This document shows, piece after piece, positions 6,433 to 50,778 of a stretch of DNA of 64,000 nucleotides. The position numbers and the translations under genes were made by a program. This stretch comes from Syncephalastrum monosporum B8922 (lineage: Eukaryota; Mucoromycota; Mucoromycetes; Mucorales; Syncephalastraceae). Every line of letters starts with the position of its first letter. The stretch's first letter is position 1. Below the pieces are notes generated by a model. The model was not told the origin of the DNA. It ran no database searches and saw nothing but the letters and a program-made list of their open reading frames with translations. The stretch is taken from NCBI GenBank assembly GCA_000697355.1, contig JNEN01001251.1, positions 1-64,000 on the forward strand, given 5' to 3'.

Positions 6433-8192
6433 ATGACCTCATCGACTCAACCACCGGCTGTTTATAGCTTACACACAACCACTCTGACTATGACCGATAC
6501 AGTTCAACGAGAGAACGAGGCTTTGGATGCGAAGCCAGCGACTGAAGGTGAGCACGAAACCCTGATACAAAAAGAAACACATCGAAATTGGGGGAGAAAA
6601 AAATGAAAAAATGGGAAAAATGGGAAGATATACAAGGCGTAGCAGTAGTCTCCCTCTCTCTCTGCAGACGCAGACGCAGACGCCGTCGCAGTCGCAGCTA
6701 CAAGAAACCATATACACTTTTTGAGCGTAATACAATATAACTTTACTGATCATGACCGATTTGTAATCATAGGCCTTGGACTCAACGGTGCCAACAGCCC
6801 TCCGATGGCCGTCCTCCCACTCAACTCCAGTTCCAAGCTGGACCAGGAGCCCAACCCATTTGAGAAGAGTTTCTCAGGCATGGCTGCGACAAGCGAAGGT
6901 GGTGGCAGCAGCAGCAGCAGCTCCAAGAATGAATCAAAGGAGAACCATCCCCATCCTGAGACACCCAAACCAGTACTTCCTCCTGTAGCCTCTATCACGA
7001 GTCCAGCGCTGATTGGTGGTGGTGTTTTGCCCCGAGACGTTGCCAGCCAATTTACGTGGGATAGTCTCCGTAGCGGCCCACTCTCGCCTTCCATGCTGCA
7101 AGGTCCGAAGCAACAACAAAGCTACCAACAGTCATCACCACAGCAGCAGCAACAGCAACAGTACAGTGCGTTAGGCAAGGCATCTACCTCGCAGGGCGAC
7201 TTTGTGAGCCAGGAAAATGTCTTTGGTAAGGAAAAGAAAAAAAGTGAACACCGCCTGTTGACGCAATTATTAACGAATATCAACTAGCGTCAGAAATGCC
7301 CTATGCTGTTCCCACCAGCAGCGGTGCGAGCTATGCGCGACCTCAACCACAGCAGCCACCAACTCCTGATGAGAAGGGGAGCGAGGCCAGCGCACCTAAC
7401 AATAGCAATAAAGCAAACACAGCGACACGGCGCAAGGCATCCGCCGCCAGCAAGGAAGATGACAAGGAAGCCAGCAAAAAGAAGCAGCGCACACGGGAAA
7501 AGTCAACCGAAGACGATGAAAAACGGAAAAACTTTTTGGAACGCAACCGCATTGGTAAGGCGTGCACATTTGCTGATCATCCATAATTATGGAAATGTTT
7601 TTATTGACATTGTATATCTTTTGTTATGATAGCTGCGCTTAAATGCAGACAGCGCAAGAAACAATGGCTGAACAATCTGCAAAGCAAAGTGGAGATGCTG
7701 ACAAGCGAGAATGAGCAGCTGCAAGTGCAGACTGAGGCCATGCGCGAGGAGATAGTGAATCTGAAGACGCTGCTTCTTGCTCACAAGGATTGCCCTGTTG
7801 CCCAAAGCAACGGATTCACTGCCTCAGCTGTCCAGAAATCCATACCAACCGTGATGCCCCAGCATATGATGCACCCTCGAACCTCCACACAACCCTCTCA
7901 ACCACAGCCACCCACGCAAGCACAACAGCAGCAGCCATCTGCAGCACCACAGCCACCTGTGTTCTCCTATGCAAGGCAAGGCCAACCAGGGGATCGTCCA
8001 ACAGCAACGGCGCCGCCCACATCTGCGTCGTCTCGGCCTCCCACGGCAGGTGTTCCTTATACCTCGGGCATGTCCAATCCAGCCTTCCCCGTCAGCAATA
8101 TGATCGGCGTGCCCATGCAGGAGCAGAATGGGCCTCCCCACCCTCATCAGCAGGGCATGGTGGCTGGCTCGTCGGGCGTCATGCGCTTTTAA
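6433..8192 (+). CDS. Atf1/CREB-type bZIP transcription factor
   Basis: Exons 6433-6547, 6773-7225, 7288-7554 and 7633-8192 give 464 residues. A second in-frame ATG at 6490 could be the real start; the first is used because no stop separates them. The N-terminal half is disordered, with Ser, Gln and Pro runs and SP/TP sites. An acidic/basic linker (about residues 225-265) leads to the basic region KRKNFLERNRIAALKCRQRK, which contains the N-x3-A-x2-C/S-R contact signature. The zipper WLNNLQSKVEMLTSENEQLQ and its continuation run to about residue 330. The basic region is that of ATF2/Atf1, the stress factor phosphorylated by Sty1/Hog1-type MAP kinases. The intron between exons 3 and 4 splits the basic region at 'RI|AALK'. 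Intron 1 (225 nt) is long for this window and holds a GACGCA repeat. Confidence 0.9.
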
Positions 8193-9185
8193 CCTACTGA
8201 CATGTTATCTCTTTTTCTAAAAAAGAGCAAAGCTATGCCGGGGCTATTTACCACATACACACGCGTCTCTCTTTCTTGGTGTGGCACTTTGTCGCTGACT
8301 TGGTTATTCCCTCCCCAGCTTCCCTCCCTCCCCCCAAAACCCAATCCTACTGGACTCATCCCCCTCTTTTATTCTCTCTTTGATCTCTTTTTTCTCTTCG
8401 CATACCTTGCCCATGCTCAATCGGTCCGCCTTGTATAAAGCCAATTCGCTGTACGATATTCGATCTTTCTCTCTTTTTTTTTCTCCTATCAAATACAAAA
8501 ATGATTCCGTCTGTAGTGCGACAAATGTCATAAGAAGTCGTTCAATTGGCGATATTGCAACGTTGGAATTGGGATCTGGCCTAGGAAAAATTCGTTCTGC
8601 ATAGTTATTCGTTGATCCCAGAGGCTGCCTTCACGAAAAAGTAAAAGATGCCAAGAAAAAGAGGGCGCGTTGGGGGATGCATGAAAGGGCCCTTATCGAA
8701 AGGAAGAAGGAAAATTCGGAGTGTCATTACATTTACTTTATTGCTTGCGTCGATGTTGTGCTGTGAGTGGAATGCAGTCTAAAATCAGCTCTTCCATGCC
8801 TTTTTTCACTAAGGTGTACGTCTCTCTTTTCCTTTTTTTGTGCTGTATTACTGAAAGATATGCAATACACAGTTTTTTTTGTCAACAGAACATTCAACTC
8901 GTTCTTTGCTGCTGTATGATGTGCATATAGTTGCCAATGAAATCTCGAGATAGCTGAACGTTCAAGTAGATGCGGCGCAAAAAGAGGAGAGTCCCCCCAA
9001 AAAGAAGGGGGAACATTATGAAGTACAGATCGTACGTAGTAAGGGGAATCTTTGTTTCTCTATAGAAGCCAAAGAAGTTTATAAGTCAAGCATTTTTAAA
9101 AGGGGCCCCTTGTCTTCCTCTTATAAAAAGCCCGTATCACTGTGTTATCATAATCCTCTCTTTTTTTCCATCATAATACATATCT
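8193..9185. other. intergenic region, about 1 kb
   Basis: 3' flank of the bZIP gene (pyrimidine-rich) and promoter of the PDK-like gene. The last 200 bp hold C4-7/G5 runs, a palindrome of AGGGG/CCCCT and a TATA box. No gene seen. Confidence 0.4.
9100..9128 (+). promoter_or_regulatory. STRE-like palindrome and TATA box of the PDK-like gene
   Basis: AAGGGGCCCCTT (9100-9111) is a perfect palindrome that contains AGGGG and CCCCT, the core of fungal stress-response elements. TATAAAA follows at 9122-9128, about 60 bp before the start codon at 9186. Confidence 0.4.
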
Positions 9186-10748
9186 ATGCTACAGACCCAA
9201 ATCATAAACGTGCTTCCCAGACGCCTTCTTGCCACACTTTGGGCTTCCCAGGAGACTCGTGTATCTGTAAGTCGACATCAACATGCATTCCAAGCCTTTC
9301 TTTTCCTCTATGTCTTTGACCTGTACTGATTGTCAATTATTTTTCCCCAACTTTTTTTAGCTTTCGCATTTCCTTAAGCAGGATAAAGATAGCTCGCACG
9401 ATATAAAAACAGATACTGCAGCATACGATGATGCTGCACGGCCTGTGACGACAACTGCATCGTTCCTCACATCTGAGCTGCCCGTTCGCTATGCGCATCA
9501 ACTCCGCTTGCTGTCGACATTGACACCCGATGCACTCCAAACGCCCATTATCCGCCACGTAGCATACCGCTATCTGCATGATATATGCACGCTTCTTCAT
9601 CCTTCACTGCAGAACACTTCGCCGCGCGGCTTTACAGAGACCGTAAAGCGGATACGTTCACGCCAAGCCGCTAGCCTAGTGCGTCTGCGATATGTGCTAC
9701 GATCTGCAACGCCGTCAACAGTGGCCCTCATGGATAATATCAGCACCATCAGCCTTGGCATACAAATGCTGATTGGTATGTATATTCCAAGGAGAATTTA
9801 TTTCTGTATTCCAGATTGTCGATGTGATCAATTAATTTACGATTTGACCTATTTGCAGATCAACACCTGTCGTGGAGCTCGAATGAAACACAAAAAGTGC
9901 AAACAGTGTGCCCGGTTGCAGTAGCCAAACAAGCAGCAGATGATGCACGCAGTCTATGCAGTCATTCCCTGGGGCAGGATGCGCCGGTCATCCGAGTCGA
10001 ACGGTACGAGCGGCAGGTGCAGCAAGTGGAACTCACATACATGCCGGACGTGCTTTACCGTATCCTGTTTGAGTCCATGGTAGCCTCGCTTCGTGCTCGC
10101 ATGAGCGATAAAGTGTTTCATACTAAAAAGTCCTGGTTCTCCTGGCTTCGACGAGAACAAGAAGAGCCCCTCGTCGTGAACGTCTTTGGTGGCCCGACAA
10201 GCGTTGGATTTCGGATGCACTGCCCTTCGACGCTGAGCGCGCGCGAACTCAACACACTCGATATCCCGCGCGACCCGTTCCTGGGTATTCCCACATGCGC
10301 CAATGTGCTCAGCGCCACCCAGCCCGACCGACTAGACAATCACGACGAGAGCGAGGACATGGTGTGGCACGCATGGTCGGGTTATCGCTCAGCCAAGACG
10401 CTCGCAAGCCATTGGGGTGGCAACCTTGATGCTGTGTCGGTAGATGGCATTGGCTCGACCCTGTACCTCGCACTGGACCGGGATGCATCGCTTCTCGAGC
10501 GGTATCCGACCCGCCGATCTTTAGGAGCGGCTGCGTACCAGCTCTTCCGTCACCACCGTCGGTCTTCAGCGGCTGCCAATGCTTCTTCCAACCAGTTCCT
10601 GACCATTGCGGCGGCACAAGACCAGTTGGATGCGTTTCTCGAGGCGATTTCTGTGCCTGATCAGAACGGTCGACAGTACAGCCCTATGCGCAAGGACCAC
10701 TCGGTCTCCCTTCAAGCTGCCGTTGCAGCAGCTGCAGGCCATGTCTAA
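9186..10748 (+). CDS. mitochondrial PDK/BCKDK-family protein, probable pseudokinase
   Basis: Exons 9186-9266, 9361-9775 and 9859-10748 encode 461 residues. The start MLQTQIINVLPRRLLATLW looks like a mitochondrial presequence. The middle matches the four-helix bundle of pyruvate/branched-chain dehydrogenase kinases: ELPVRYAHQLRLL, SPRGF, and DNISTISLGIQMLIDQH, spliced across intron 2. The C-terminal GHKL half keeps YMPDVLYRILFE and the glycine box GYRSAKTLASHWGGNLDAVS followed by GIGSTLYL. However, the N-box reads LFESMVASLRA where active members have LFELFKNAMRA, so the Mg-binding Asn is Ala (about residue 241). The DxGxG motif expected after 'SVGFRM' is replaced by HCPSTLS. Active PDKs phosphorylate E1-alpha in the matrix; this one may bind without catalysis. 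Splice frame closes cleanly, so the losses are not sequencing frameshifts. Confidence 0.82.
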
Positions 10749-11200: not shown

Positions 11201-11703
11201 CTATGTCTTTTTGAACCCGTATTTTTTCCTCTCGTAAAATAGATCTAGCACTGTGGTTAGCACCCGATTGAACGGAAGACGAATGAACTTACCTGTTTTT
11301 GAGGATCCAAGGTTAATGATCTTCGGACACCCTTCGCGATCCTTTTCTAATCGCGTACAGCCTACGCAATAGTAGGCATCCGAGACACCGGGTCCACCGC
11401 AAATGACACAGCGACCTTGGAATGAGCCTGTAGAGATTCCTTTGTCAGTCAACGCTGCGAGAGGATATGTATATGTATATTATATTATATGTGACATACC
11501 AAAGTTGCACTCATCGCAAATGCGGACAAGAGTGGCGGGGCGTACGTAACTATGGAATGGGTCAGAAGGTGGCTGCAAGAAGTATGGAGGTGGACGTACC
11601 TATCACAAATGACGCATTTACCGTCGCATTTATCGCAGAGACGGCCAATGGCAATGCCTGGCTGCTTACGGCAAAAGATCAGATCAGGGTGATGCTTTGC
11701 CAT
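11201..11703 (-). CDS. RDS3: SF3b subunit PHF5A / Rds3 (SF3b14b), splicing factor
   Basis: Exons 11703-11600, 11549-11500, 11427-11293 and 11244-11201 give 110 residues, the same length as animal PHF5A. The protein starts [20 protein letters not shown] and has the full set of CxxC knuckles: [30 protein letters not shown] and [18 protein letters not shown]. It ends [11 protein letters not shown]. These cysteines form the three-zinc knotted fold. The protein is a core subunit of the U2 snRNP SF3b complex that holds the branch-point adenosine. Four exons for a 110-residue protein is typical of this genome. It diverges from the Ala/Pro-repeat gene with only 130 bp between the start codons, so the two share a promoter. 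Confidence 0.97.
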
Positions 11704-16642: not shown

Positions 16643-19425
16643 CTAGTCCAAGAGGTTCCAGCTCTTCAACCATCGTCTGCCGGCATACTGGGAGATGGGC
16701 CCCTGCATACCGTAAGCGACGGGTGCGAAATAGATAAACACCAAAATAACAGTAGTGTATGCTGCGCCGAAAATGATGGACTGTGTCCGGGGTGACAGGT
16801 TGCGAGTGAGGTGCTCAAGCATGAAGGGCACCATGAGAATGCTGAAATACAGCGCAGGGAAGTAGTGATGGAGGTACGTGACACGGCCCATGATGTAGAA
16901 CGGTATATAGTGCAAAAACCAGCCCAAAAACAGGGTCTTTCCAACAAAGAAAAAATGGTCCCATTGAGCTATGACACATGGGTGAGTTCATCAGAAGCCT
17001 TCCCCTTCCCCAGATACCAATCAGCTTACCAGACGGCAGATCAAAGATGCGGCGCTGCATTCGAATCATGTAGAAGCCGGCTGTGGCTGCAAACACCCCG
17101 AGCGAAGCGAAAGCGGTCCACCAGACAGCGGGGTTGCCGAGCAAATAGAATTTGATGATATCGTCGCCCCATCCACACATACGCAGGCCTACGGACGCCA
17201 AGGGCCACTCGGCAGGTTCGGACGAAAGAATATCTTCTTTGTCAGGGTCAGGGATCAGTGCATTGTTCGAGGTCCACATAGCGACATTGAGATGCCAAAA
17301 ATCATGCAAGAACTTGGACTTGTACGCATTCTTTGGAGCAGGCGGGACTAAGGGGACGCGCCTATGAGCATATTCCGTTCTTCACTTACTTTGTTCCACT
17401 TACGTTTATCATTGTAATGCTCCTCCACGTTCCACCAGGTATGCGGATCCTCAGGCCGATTACGCTTGTCACAGGTGACTTCGACTTGCTTGAAACCCCA
17501 CTGAGGCAGAACCACGTTGTTGGCAGCCAGAAGACAGTCTAGATTGGTGTGTCGCAGGCGGAAGCGCGTGGTGAGTGAACGCACGCGTTCCTTGTCGGTA
17601 TACGCCACATCATCCACAATTTCAACCTTCCAGTTATCCTGTACATCGCCGATCGTATCATTCCCGTAGCAGCTGACTTCCCACTGGTTTGAAGTAATGG
17701 GGGCGTTGATGGGGTGTGAATGGAGGTTGCGGCCTGTCGACGTGTGGAGCAGACGAATGATATCGCCGTCTTTGACAAAGCGGATATTGTTTTCGTCCTC
17801 ATACTCTTGTGGGTTGCCGACATTGCGCGGAGGACGTATAGTCCAGTGGTTGTTGTTGTCCTTGTAGTGGTAACAAGTCACTTGCTGCTGTTTGGATCCC
17901 TCAGGGAAGGTTTGGATATGTGAATGCAGCAGACCACCGCCGTAGCCGTAGTTTTTGATCGTCAATTTAGAGCCATATGCAAGTTCTGGTCGTCGAACAA
18001 AATGGTGTAAGAGCTTTAATTCACGTCTCTCCCGACTTCCAGACTTACCCAAAGGATTATTTTCAAACGAATTGCCTGATAAACGAGCTTGGAAGAGCGA
18101 GCTCATTTGCGCGTCACCAGGACCGCTCCGGTACAGAATAGCAAAATGGACAGCAAACGACAGGAGGTAGACAAAGATGGGCAGGACGATAAGACACGCG
18201 ATGCGGGCGAGCCAGTGAGCAGCATAGGTCTTTTTGGGCATCTGGATGTCACCCAGCATGGCCCACAGGTCCTCAATGGTGTAAATGCCAACCAGGGCAA
18301 CAGCAAAGAGTCCGACCCACTTGACGCTCGAGACACAGCCGAGAGAGAAACCTGTCAATGTAAGCCAGATCCACCAGTCATCCGAGAATGGCCTACCAAA
18401 GCATGGGGTGAATACATGAGAATACCATATCACCACGTGGATACTCACTCGTTGCGTTTGTTGTGGAAGACTGCGAGACAATACAAAGACAAGCAGGTGA
18501 AGAAGAGAAGCATGGAATCGAGCAGAATGAAACGGCTGATACACAAGTAGGCGGTATCTATGCATAGACATGAAGATGAATGAGCCATAGAGAGCGTTCA
18601 GAGACAACTCGGATGAACTTACCGAGAAGAACCATGGTAGCGGCCAAGATACTGGCTCTGTAGGACATATGGAGCTGACGCGCGGTAAGGTAGGCGAGCG
18701 GGACCAGCATCGCACCCCACACGGCATTGAATGCGCGCATGACGGTGTAGTTGAGATTGTCTGGATAGGCGTGACCAGACTCAAAGCCAAACGAGCCATC
18801 GTAGCCCGCGAGCCACCCAGACAAACCAACCAGCATCTTACCCAGGGGTGGATGTACGTCAAAATAGAACTCGTGCTTCAAGTAATGCGATCCAAACTAG
18901 TTGACATAGGGACATGAATGAGTGACCTGCCACTGGGGAAATGGAGATAGAAACGCGTATTGGGTGTGTCTCTTCTTTCTTACTTTGCCAAAGTGTGCCT
19001 AAACGAAAGAGGTGAATAACGAGAATGCTACCGAATCAGACAGGAGATAGAATTACCTCGTCCCAAACGACAATATTAGACCAACCAATTATGCGAAAAC
19101 GCGTCCACAGGGCCAGCAAGGTCAGCACGCCTGGAATGACCAGCCGGTGATGCTTTTGACAGAACGCAATGTACTGGTACGAAGCAGCCAGCTGAGTGAA
19201 CTTGCCGTAGAGTGTATCGTTGTATCTTTTACGATATGATAGATGTTATAGAAATACCTTATTCGAGGAGTATACGACGGGCGGTGGAGGAGGTTTGTAG
19301 GTCTTGTCTTTCTCGGCATAATAGGCTGGGGTGGAATGAAGAGGTGGCGAATGGTAGAGCGGAGGGGTGGCTTTGGCGTCGTCTGGTATGGACTGTGTCT
19401 GGTGTCTTCTTTTGAGGTTGTCCAT
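16643..19425 (-). CDS. PMT2: protein O-mannosyltransferase, PMT2 family
   Basis: Nine exons (19425-19258, 19191-19057, 18998-18984, 18896-18623, 18557-18449, 18392-18049, 17985-17404, 17347-17030, 16968-16643) give 756 residues, the usual PMT length. The catalytic loop reads [20 protein letters not shown], assembled across a 15-nt exon that encodes only AHFGK; the Asp-Glu pair is present. It continues with [20 protein letters not shown] and [13 protein letters not shown]. The luminal MIR region spans about 370-560 ([45 protein letters not shown]). The C-terminal membrane helices end [20 protein letters not shown]. The enzyme moves mannose from dolichol-P-mannose to Ser/Thr in the ER lumen, usually as a Pmt1-Pmt2 heterodimer. 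Exon 2 could alternatively begin nine bases earlier (an AAG acceptor). Confidence 0.93.
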
Positions 19426-22400: not shown

Positions 22401-22874
22401 CGCGTTAAAGTTGATTACAAGTGGACAAAGGTCAAGTGCGAATGTGGGGGGTGGATATCAAAAGCGTGCAAGGCGAGCGGGAAACACGCAGAAAAAAGAG
22501 AAAAGGAATCACCATGATACAAAGCATCCAAAAAAGGACAAGGCAGTGCGAGAGGTTGCACCAATTGCTTTGCCGTAAGCGTCGATCCTTGGGTGCGGGA
22601 TGAAAGCGAAGCACCAATGAGGACTGTGTGTGACCCAGCAGGAGCGCAAAAAACGCAAAAATAATCATTTTTTTAGCATGTGAAGCGCCATACAATTACC
22701 CGCCCGTGCGTATTGCGCCTTTCTCCACGCTTCGCGCATCTCATTTTTTTTTCCTCTAAAAATCCCTATATAAATCTCCACAGCTTTCCCCAGCTTTCCC
22801 AGTTCTTTTTCGTTTTTACGTTTTCTTTTCCTCCCTCTTGCATCTTCCAACACCATTCCACCTATTCAGCATAT
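19426..22874. other. gene-poor region, 3.4 kb
   Basis: Divergent promoters of PMT2 (-) and the glycerol kinase gene (+) with about 3 kb between that yields no convincing exon chain. Composition is AT-richer than the genes. It has a T9/A15 near-inverted homopolymer pair at about 21298-21325 and many short open frames without family resemblance. One short Cys-rich frame (22378-22518) was considered and not accepted. Confidence 0.4.
22767..22774 (+). promoter_or_regulatory. TATA box of the glycerol kinase gene
   Basis: TATATAAA about 100 bp upstream of the start codon at 22875, followed by a CT-rich leader. Confidence 0.5.
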
Positions 22875-23765
22875 ATGCCGACCCCCTCTGCAGTTACTAG
22901 CAACAAACGACTTGTAGGTGCTATCGACCAAGGCACCACGTCGACTCGCTTCGTTGTGTTCGACGAGCGCGGCTCGATCGTCACCTACCACCAGATCCAA
23001 AGCGAGCAGCTCTACCCTCAGCCCGGTTGGGCCGAGCAGGACCCTTACGCTCTGCTCGACGCCGCACGTGCGTGTATCGAGCAAGCTGTCCGCAAAATGG
23101 ACATCTTGGGCTTGAGCGCGGCCGACATTGCCTCGATTGGCGTGACGAACCAGCGTGAGACCACCTTGGTATGGGACCGTCTTACTGGCGAACCGCTTTA
23201 CCCCGCCATCTTGTGGTCCGACGCGCGCACGGCTGACACCGTCCAAAAATACATTGACGCTTCCGACAAGGGCACCGACGCCCTCCGACACATTACCGGT
23301 CTTCCCCTCGCTGCCTACTTTTCGGCCATGAAGATCCGGTGGCTGCTCGATAACGTCCCTGAAGTCATGGAGGCCAAGGAGCAAGGTCGTCTCCAATACG
23401 GTACACTCGATACCTGGCTGATTTACGTAAGTTGAATATTTGTCCGGTGCGCCCTGTTTCTCCGAAACTAATCTCCGTTTTATTTTTACCAGAATCTGAC
23501 GGGTGGCCGAGACAACGGCGTCGTCGTGACCGATGTGACAAACGCATCCCGCACGATGCTCATGGATATCCATACCCTGCAATGGAGTGATGAGTGCCTC
23601 CAGTTCTTTGGTCTCGAAGATCTCCAGCTTCCTAAACTCGTCTCCTCCTCGCGCATCTATGGCAACATCAGCTCAGGCTCTCTGGCTGGTATTCCTATCG
23701 CAGGCTGCCTGGGTGACCAACAGGCTGCGATGGTTGGCCAAAAATGTTTCAACAAGGGCGATGCC

Positions 23766-23797
<32 letters not shown>

Positions 23798-24497
23798 CTT
23801 CAACACTGGCAACAAGCCTATCGTGTCTCAGCACGGTCTACTCTCTACCGTCGCTTTCCAATTTGGTGATCAGCCTGCGTCGTACGCTCTCGAAGGTTCC
23901 GTGGCTGTCGCTGGATCCTCCATTAACTGGCTCCGTGACAACCTCGGCGTTATCAACTCACCCGCACAATTGAATGAGCTCGCCGCCAAGGTCGATGATA
24001 CTGCTGGCGTTTACTTTGTCACCGCTTTCAACGGCCTCTTTGCTCCTTACTGGCGCGACGATGCCCGCGGTACTATCTGCGGTCTCACGCAATACACCAA
24101 CATTTCTCACCTGGCGCGTGCTACCCTCGAAGCTGTCTGCTATCAGTCACGAGCCATTCTTGAAGCCATGGATCGCGAAAGCAACACCCCTCTGCGCTCG
24201 CTCAAGGTGGATGGCGGTATCTCCAACTCAGACCTGTGCATGCAGATCCAGGCCGATGTTCTCGGTATCAACGTCGAGCGTCCGTCCATGCGTGAGATGA
24301 CCGCCCTCGGTGCTGCTATCGCCGCCGGTCTTGCCACTGGCGTCTGGGAGTCCATTGAGGACCTCAAAGATGTGAACCAGGAAGGCGTCTCCGTGTTCGA
24401 GCCTAAAATCGACGAGAAGAAGCGCGAGCGCATGTTCCACGGCTGGCAAGAAGCTGTCACCCGCTCCTTTGGCTGGTCAAAGCTCGCCTCGGCGTAA
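22875..24497 (+). CDS. GUT1: glycerol kinase
   Basis: Exons 22875-23426 and 23493-24497 encode 518 residues, close to bacterial and fungal glycerol kinases. The FGGY fold is complete: GAIDQGTTSTRFVVFDERG (phosphate-binding start), NQRETTLVWDRLTGEPLYPA, WSDARTADT, the QYGTLDTWLIY|NLTGG junction across the intron, NTYGTGCFMLFNTG, FAPYWRDDARGTICGL, and the C-terminal KVDGGISNSDLCMQIQADVL with PSMREMTALGAAIAAG. It makes glycerol-3-phosphate from glycerol and ATP in the cytosol and feeds lipid synthesis and glycolysis. The reading frame is rich in C-ending codons, suggesting good expression. The ATG at 22875 is chosen because it precedes the conserved start by ~10 residues and follows a TATA box at a normal distance. 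Confidence 0.96.
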
Positions 24498-49044: not shown

Positions 49045-50778
49045 TTATTCAAGGGTGGGTGTTCCGTGGATACGTACACGGTACAAGCAAGTATAGTCGG
49101 GGTTACCCCAGTTGTCTTCTATTTGTATCAGTACAGCTTCAAACGTTGAAACACGCAGCATCTCAAAATACGATGTTTGTATAGTATAATTGCTGTGGAT
49201 ATCGTATCTGACTTCGCCAAGACGAATCTTTTCGTACGTGTCGCGGAAAAGGCCTCGCCTACAGTTGAGCAGACCATAAATGATGATGTCTTTGGGTGCT
49301 GAGGTTCCGTTAACCAGGAGCTCCTTGCCAGCATGTTCAACCGTGACGCCTTGCACAAAAATCGGCTCGCTCAGGAAAATAGCGAGAGAACCTTGAGATC
49401 CTTTCATGGGCCAGCAGTTGCCAACGTGCGTGTCTGGATTCAGCACCATGTCCGGGGGATTGCTGGAGGGACCGAGATCGAAAAGATAGCGCAAGACATA
49501 TTGCATATAGTTATCACCAGGAATATAAGTTGCTGTTGTAAGGGATGCGATCACGACAGCACCACGACTGCCCAGGGCATAGTCGGGCTTCATGATCATG
49601 TCCAAAGACAACCGCCGTATCGTTTCTTGTACAATCGCCTCCATGTCTGTCGGGCTGAGACTCGGCGACTTTGCCTTTCCTTGCTGTTGCTGTTGGTGTC
49701 GCCTGGCAATTTCGGCCTTGATCCACGCTGACCAAACCTTGTGGTTTTTTTCAATCACCTGCATGACTTCCTTGCCGGTTTTTCTTAAAAACTGGTCCTC
49801 CATCGCTTGGTTGTCGTGCTGCACCATGTCATCCCAATCGTCTCCCAGTGAGTGAGTGCCAAGGAGATGTTGAGACACAGCATCTGCAATAGTGGCCGAT
49901 ATATCGTCATAAGAGGGAGTAGCAGCCACTGTCTCGTGAGCCTCGGGGGTGGCACCAGAGTCGGTGAAGCCAGCGGACACTGGGCCAATGTGCGATAGCA
50001 CTTGTGCAAAAGCTACCGAGGTGAACGGACCATGACTCGTGAAGGAGGGCATGCATGACTTGAACAGCTCGTATACCACACTAACATGAGTGTACCTCAG
50101 TACAATGGAGACATAGATGCAGAGCGCGACGATGAGGAACGGCACTAGAGGTGAGCGTGGTGGTTCATTATGAAAGCGCCATGGATGGAAAGGGTCGATA
50201 TATCGCCTATCAGGGAGGAAGCCTCCTTTCTTCATGACAAAGAGCACTGGATTGACAATGAGAATACCAACGGCCATGTCGAGGACATATATCATGGAGA
50301 AGACAACTTCCTTGATAGAGAAAGGAACGAGGAATATGACATAGAGTACCCAGATGTATGTTTTTTCGGCGTGGAGAAAGAGCTGTCGCCAAAGGATGCC
50401 TTCTTCGCCGTGCCGCTTCTCGGCATGTGTTCGGTCAGTGAGAGTGTTCACTTTATTTTGGCTAGAGGAGTCCTCCACAGAAACCCGACGAAGGCTGGGC
50501 GGTGTTGATACCGGGTGGGTTTGTTCTCGGGAAGGCAATGGAGGTGATGGTTGAGGTACTGACTTGACTTTTTTTTTGGTTATTGGTAAGCTAGTCAGTG
50601 TTGTGTTTTATATTCTTGATCTACCATGTAACTGCTGATGGATGAGGCCGGTCGATCTATTGGTCCTTCCAACAGCTTGAGGGAAGACTTTCTCAAATTC
50701 TTCACGGTTTTTCCTCGCCTTAGATACGCGATCCCACTGTTCTTCATCACCAGAGAGGCTTCCACCTGAAAAAAACAT
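49045..50778 (-). CDS. SUN-domain nuclear-envelope protein (Sad1/UNC-84 family)
   Basis: Exons 50778-50625 and 50558-49045 give 555 residues. The first exon encodes a polar N terminus (SGDEEQWDRVSKARKNREEF); joining yields LIHQQLHVPQPSPPLPSREQ. Upstream of residue 1 the sequence is also acceptor-like (TTTTTTTCAG|GTGG), so a further 5' exon is possible. Two or three membrane segments follow (VLYVIFLVPFSIKEVVFSMI; FLIVALCIYVSIVL), then a luminal linker with coiled-coil character and a Gln run. The SUN domain occupies ~365-555: PDYALGSRGAVVIASLTTAT, PDTHVGNCWPMKGSQGSLAI, FLSEPIFVQGVTVEHAG, and ending WGNPDYTCLYRVRIHG. It spans the inner nuclear membrane and pairs with KASH proteins. Confidence 0.92.

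Follow-up and report, generated by a model that had tools for sequence, protein, structure and literature searches.

Pyruvate dehydrogenase kinases (PDKs) control how much carbon enters acetyl-CoA, and in the PDK/BCKDK family the helical domain docks on E2. According to passages of PMC4059968, PDKs form both homo- and heterodimers and are recruited by the lipoyl domains of E2, and the yeast enzymes Pkp1 and Pkp2 are stated, in a part of PMC10345312, to work as a heterodimer. The gene analyzed here, at positions 9186..10748 of a 64,000-nt stretch of the Syncephalastrum monosporum B8922 genome (GenBank assembly GCA_000697355.1, contig JNEN01001251.1, positions 1 to 64,000; hereafter, the window), encodes a member of this family that had been predicted, from its sequence, to have lost two ATP-binding motifs. 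Comparison with its relatives indicates that it very probably belongs to a branch of this family, conserved in the Mucorales, whose members are pseudoenzymes.

Loss of the nucleotide-binding motifs

The gene and the regions on which the argument depends are the following:

9186..10748, + strand: whole gene, from the ATG at 9186 to the stop codon that ends at 10748
10059..10097, + strand: degenerate N-box RILFESMVASLRA (amino acids 233-245), with Glu237 kept and the Asn changed to Ala241
10185..10235, + strand: signature FGGPTSVGFRM followed by HCPSTL, which replaces DxGxG (amino acids 275-291)
10374..10388, + strand: WSGYR, the lost GxGxP of the ATP lid (amino acids 338-342)
10485..10745, + strand: C-terminal tail, 87 amino acids that follow YLALDRD and include the conserved motifs LERYP, QLDAF and H.VSL.AAV

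Motifs were counted over 50 branch rows, made up of the window protein and 49 of its 69 homology matches (those of at least 350 amino acids, leaving out P0001, a fragment of the window protein itself); these rows are not independent, since they include near-copies (P0004/P0002) and unnamed proteins. The yardstick consisted of 125 motif-bearing rows, four of them paralogues from the same genome (C68, C129, C179 and C80) and 121 from databases (P0078 plus the 120 listed of 2185 matches). Gathered with motif-bearing queries, it leans towards intact motifs, and it counts one gene twice, as P0079 is identical to C179 save for 2 of 404 residues.

In the N-box, where the window protein reads ILFESMVASLRA and its paralogues C68 and C129 read ILTELLKNAQRA and ILFELLSNAIRF, respectively, the Asn is kept in none of the 50 branch rows and in all 125 motif-bearing ones. 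Its column is now occupied by Leu (33 rows), Ile (8), Met (4), Val (3), Ala (1) or Thr (1), so that one of the first four residues is found in 48 of 50, and the Ala of the window protein is unusual and its own. The N-box Glu, Glu237 in the window protein, persists in 50/50. Downstream, FRMHCPSTLSA aligns with IRIRDQGGGVA or FRVSDQGGGIP of the paralogues, and not one of the 50 branch proteins contains a DxGxG at any position, whereas its Asp and both Gly are present in 125/125 of the yardstick. In 18 branch rows an Asp stands one column ahead of the expected place, with the glycines missing, and the last Gly of the old motif is mostly Leu. A third motif is also affected: the GxGxP of the ATP lid keeps its second Gly in all 50 rows and its first Gly and its Pro in none, against both Gly in 125 and Pro in 124 of the motif-bearing rows. 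The GG (352-353) and GxG (362-364) of the C-terminal sheet are kept throughout the branch (50/50).

The original prediction is thus borne out for the replaced Asn, the absent DxGxG and the remaining Glu. Its claim of a retained C-terminal glycine box stands for the GG and GxG but fails for the first Gly and the Pro of the lid, and the proposed check for the same substitutions in relatives finds the loss of the motifs in 50/50 and mostly Leu where the window protein has Ala. A chance loss is excluded, because relatives share the replacement of both Asn and DxGxG. Overall, the alignments and the structural model establish that all three nucleotide-binding motifs have been replaced throughout the aligned branch, which has gained a tail and new conserved surfaces.

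Conservation and distribution of the branch

Membership of the PDK/BCKDK family with its four-helix bundle, also part of the original prediction, is supported by the Pfam domain BCDHK_Adom3, recognized in the window protein (E 1.7e-11) and in all 36 members of an alignment (A1) of 35 homologues plus the window. The ATPase domain HATPase_c is not detected by Pfam in the window protein, nor in any of the 36 members at E<=1, and is recognized in C179. The window protein has the whole PDK fold, and the sequence and the structural model demonstrate that the kinase fold is kept, with its helical domain as well as its C-terminal sheet.

The 69 matches include named homologues from 28 genera, which we take to be Mucorales, the nearest named ones, from Rhizomucor pusillus and Fennellomyces, being 55-56% identical to the window protein. 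Although the 36 sequences of alignment A1 share no more than 42-60% identity with the window protein, 45 of its columns are invariant. When 45 branch rows (the 50 minus P0004, P0021, P0053, P0058 and P0060) were set against the 125 motif-bearing rows, 74 positions appeared that are at least 95% conserved in the former and different or variable in the latter. These include the N-terminal LP.R, W19 and ETR, the FGGPTS.GFRL that runs up to the former DxGxG, a GW close to the lid, and ALDRD, LERYP, QLDAF and H.VSL.AAV. The N-terminal L10, P11, W19, T24 and R25 are found in 48/48 rows with a letter, and F425 of the tail in 50/50. The tail after YLALDRD measures 32-102 amino acids (median 81) in the 50 branch rows against a median of 9, taken from a nearby landmark, in 101 motif-bearing rows, and from QLDAF onward it faces mostly gaps in motif-bearing relatives.

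A profile search gave 78 matches, 77 of them (many unnamed, the named ones taken to be Mucorales) at E 9e-65 or better; the remaining one, P0078 (E 1.8e-3), is a weak match to a motif-bearing protein of Mortierella. No named member of the branch was found outside the Mucorales among the 7997 candidates sharing most words, which were those scored by the profile, and Phycomyces, Backusella and Umbelopsis are present among the motif-bearing matches listed and absent from the branch matches. Fennellomyces (P0003/P0011), Zychaea (P0022/P0015) and Dichotomocladium (P0028/P0027) have two branch copies each, in separate parts of the tree, against a single copy recovered from the window genome; the second copy of Chlamydoabsidia, P0053, is short (355 amino acids). 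A tree was built by a quick method from 71 hand-chosen rows and 312 columns, and the program issued a warning that long branches meet in it. The 26 branch rows come together in a single group with a Shimodaira-Hasegawa-like approximate likelihood ratio (SH-aLRT) of 100, on a stem whose length, 4.13 changes per column, precludes placing the sister or origin of the branch within the family.

The loss of Asn, DxGxG and GxGxP in 50/50 rows is conserved across relatives, and the locus shows what is expected of a pseudoenzyme, namely an unbroken and conserved gene whose relatives lack the same catalytic motifs, rather than the interrupted frame or the drift across all positions of a pseudogene. Where its homologues have names in databases, they are mostly hypothetical or uncharacterized proteins, and some carry the automatic label of Protein-serine/threonine kinase, which is probably wrong for this branch.

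Paralogues in the same genome

Motif-bearing paralogues exist elsewhere in the genome (27.5 Mb in 198 contigs), where four further family members, C68, C129, C179 and C80, were found. Searches for the dehydrogenase E1 gave exon matches in this genome as well. The model of C80 was joined by hand and lacks exon sequence, and those of C68 and C129 were joined by script at consensus splice sites. A genome search with the single window protein returned only its own three exons, a result that speaks for close copies alone, as the known distant paralogues were missed too.

One of these paralogues, C179 (around 49187-49627 on the minus strand of its contig), shows an N-box Glu changed to Gln, with Asn, DxGxG and lid intact. 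The same Gln is found in 24 of the 125 motif-bearing rows, that is, C179 and its relatives, including the near-copy P0079. This Glu is the residue proposed as general base in PDK2. The C179 group is possibly a second branch, non-catalytic yet still capable of binding ATP. Another database protein, P0121 of Chlamydoabsidia padenii, joins the P-loop domains PF10609 and PF01656 to a motif-bearing PDK, and is perhaps a gene-model fusion.

Gene model and neighbouring genes

The previously given coordinates, 9186..10748, and the intact frame proved exact. The coding sequence comprises 1386 nt with the stop codon, encodes 461 amino acids without any internal stop, and is divided as follows:

9186..9266, + strand: exon 1, amino acids 1-27, with the conserved N-terminus MLQ(S/T)QIINVLPRR..LW...ETR.S
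9267..9360, + strand: intron 1, GT-AG (GTAAGT...TTTTAG), 94 nt
9361..9775, + strand: exon 2, N-terminal four-helix (BCDHK_Adom3) domain, containing FLxxELPVR
9776..9858, + strand: intron 2, GT-AG (GTATGT...TTGCAG), 83 nt
9859..10748, + strand: exon 3, 890 nt, with the end of the helical domain, the degenerate GHKL domain, the C-terminal tail and the stop

An in-frame TAA at 9174-9176, after which no AG acceptor occurs before the ATG, fixes the start codon and prevents an in-frame extension of exon 1. The related protein P0004, identical to P0002 of Rhizomucor pusillus in 444 of 446 residues, has insertions of 32 residues exactly at the place of intron 1 and of 26 at that of intron 2, as would be expected if its gene had introns at the same positions and both were read through.

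Regarding the surroundings, Rfam and tRNA scans gave no match. Two adjoining open reading frames (ORFs) at 6721-8192 (+), with matches to the Aft1 HRA and OSA domains and to bZIP_1, jointly read like one Atf1-type stress regulator. Just downstream of the gene and on the opposite strand lies a partial PHF5-like gene (11201-11452, -; profile positions 50-100 of 104). Elsewhere in the window are an ORF for a protein O-mannosyltransferase, with the domains PMT and MIR (17348-18862, -), and a carbohydrate kinase of the FGGY family (22680-24497, +) that reads like a glycerol kinase, the part scanned being 22680-23435.

Possible roles and alternative explanations

A protein of this branch would bind no Mg-ATP and phosphorylate no substrate, and any action would have to proceed through binding. 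It could pair with one of the four motif-bearing paralogues, as the silent subunit of a heterodimer, or, alternatively, occupy the lipoyl domains of dehydrogenase E2 in their place, and in either case the strength of the pyruvate or branched-chain dehydrogenase shut-off would be adjusted. The family precedents of PDK dimers, lipoyl recruitment and the Pkp1-Pkp2 pair make a kinase subunit and the E2 lipoyl domains the natural targets. Of the four lipoyl-pocket residues of PDK3, three match positions of the branch that are hydrophobic in all rows with a letter (Ile/Val/Leu/Met at amino acid 26 in 48/48, Leu/Phe/Ile at 31 in 47/47 and Phe at 62 in 49/49). The role originally put forward, that of partner or inhibitor of an active kinase, is a reasonable conjecture. 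That the branch acts on dehydrogenase kinases or complexes is nevertheless a tentative proposal, and the combined idea of a pseudoenzyme branch that controls dehydrogenases by binding falls somewhat short of probable.

Several observations weigh against such a role. The fourth residue of the lipoyl pocket has no conserved counterpart, and the retention of the N-box Glu goes without explanation. Canonical residues have also been lost outside the ATP site (for example, at the positions of amino acids 129, 142, 158 and 162 of the window protein), and therefore the surfaces on which the kinases rely may have disappeared. Its rate of change is also higher: across the same 8 species, mean pairwise identity is 56% in the branch, compared with 63% in the C179 group and 76% in the C68 group, although the branch set may mix its two subclades. 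Finally, the N-terminus of the model superposes on the start of mature PDKs (e.g. its residue 7 on residue 20 of PDK4), so the protein begins about where the mature kinase fold begins and has no separate presequence. The median distance from Met1 to ELPxR is 52 residues in 47 branch rows against 87 in 122 others, but it is also short in C80 (36, in the hand-joined model that lacks exon sequence).

The missing presequence, together with the long tree stem and the strong branch-specific conservation at the N-terminus and tail (F425 in 50/50), would also speak for a pseudokinase with a job unrelated to dehydrogenases, exerted through these two regions, whether on a different scaffold or in the cytosol. 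A parallel is offered by PkpC of A. nidulans, described in passages of PMC6027865 as cytoplasmic in glucose and without interaction with pyruvate dehydrogenase (PDH) subunits there. However, the N-terminus of the branch is basic and amphipathic, and its first 22 residues, free of acidic residues in 46/50 rows, are compatible with an internal matrix signal. The mitochondrial location originally proposed thus has observations on both sides. Moreover, the part of the protein that Pfam still recognizes is the helical domain, the one that docks on E2 in this family. An unrelated job is a real possibility, on a par with action on the dehydrogenases, albeit one that does not reach the point of being probable.

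A divergent enzyme that still uses ATP through migrated residues seems improbable. Glu237, kept in 50/50, and the Asp that 18/50 rows carry a single column ahead of the former DxGxG Asp would be in its favour, and pseudoenzymes with migrated residues are known (PMC10211241), but Asn, DxGxG and GxGxP are gone from every branch row, Leu, Ile, Met or Val takes the place of the Asn in 48/50, and none of the 36 A1 members gives an HATPase_c match. Very unlikely, in turn, is a paralogue decaying under relaxed selection, for although two paralogue groups change more slowly than the branch and the second copy of Chlamydoabsidia is short, the gene in the window has an unbroken frame, the 36 sequences of A1 preserve 45 invariant columns at 42-60% identity to the window protein, and the gene is retained in 28 named genera. 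An artefact of gene model, splicing or sequencing, for which no support was found, can be dismissed, since the losses are common to 49 relatives and a restoration of the motifs by splicing or another frame was rejected: both motif regions lie within the single 890-nt exon 3, whose three forward frames contain no DxGxG, N-box or GxGxP and in which a script search found no strong splice donor.

A broader and rather unlikely scenario would be a two-part layer of non-catalytic control in Mucorales, composed of the ATP-free branch, which keeps the Glu, and the C179 branch, which has lost it and keeps the nucleotide motifs, possibly forming pairs between themselves or joining C68, C129 and C80. The tail of about 80 amino acids might, like that of Tribbles, attract a partner or dock into the defunct ATP cleft of its own protein.

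Whatever its role, conservation across many bread-mould genera without an ATP site suggests a non-enzymatic regulator, unstudied in the literature consulted, in a group that, with its kin, includes oil-producing and industrial moulds. The original prediction of an undescribed branch agrees with the open PubMed Central matches listed, which include no report of it, no study of divergent PDK-family members of Mucorales and, with the broad topics covered in small part, none of a PDK-family pseudokinase in fungi. A term search of two pseudoenzyme reviews gave no occurrence of pyruvate dehydrogenase, PDK, GHKL or BCKDK. If the proposal is true, a conserved ATP-free branch of the GHKL type would be a class of pseudoenzymes outside the usual protein-kinase fold, and would offer a simple test of PDK heterodimers or lipoyl-domain competition as a means of control.

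Comparison with known systems

The branch is similar to the motif-bearing PDK/BCKDK proteins of fungi with BCDHK_Adom3 and HATPase_c, such as C68, C129, C179 and C80, in its fold, four-helix domain, ELPxR, N-box Glu (Gln in C179) and the GG and GxG of the C-terminal sheet, whereas it lacks their N-box Asn, DxGxG and GxGxP and has an N-terminus of its own and a conserved tail. From human PDK1-4 and BCKDK, whose structures have been solved, it differs by an identity of only about 20% and by the absence of the ATP-site motifs. Yeast Pkp1 and Pkp2, as described in PMC10345312, provide a precedent for paired family members. As in Tribbles and other protein pseudokinases, catalytic motifs have been replaced in a conserved family with a conserved C-terminal tail, which in Tribbles docks into an atypical nucleotide site, as described in a section of PMC7586955. 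However, the GHKL/PDK fold of the branch is unrelated to that of Tribbles, and the tail docking known for the latter would be a putative feature of the former.
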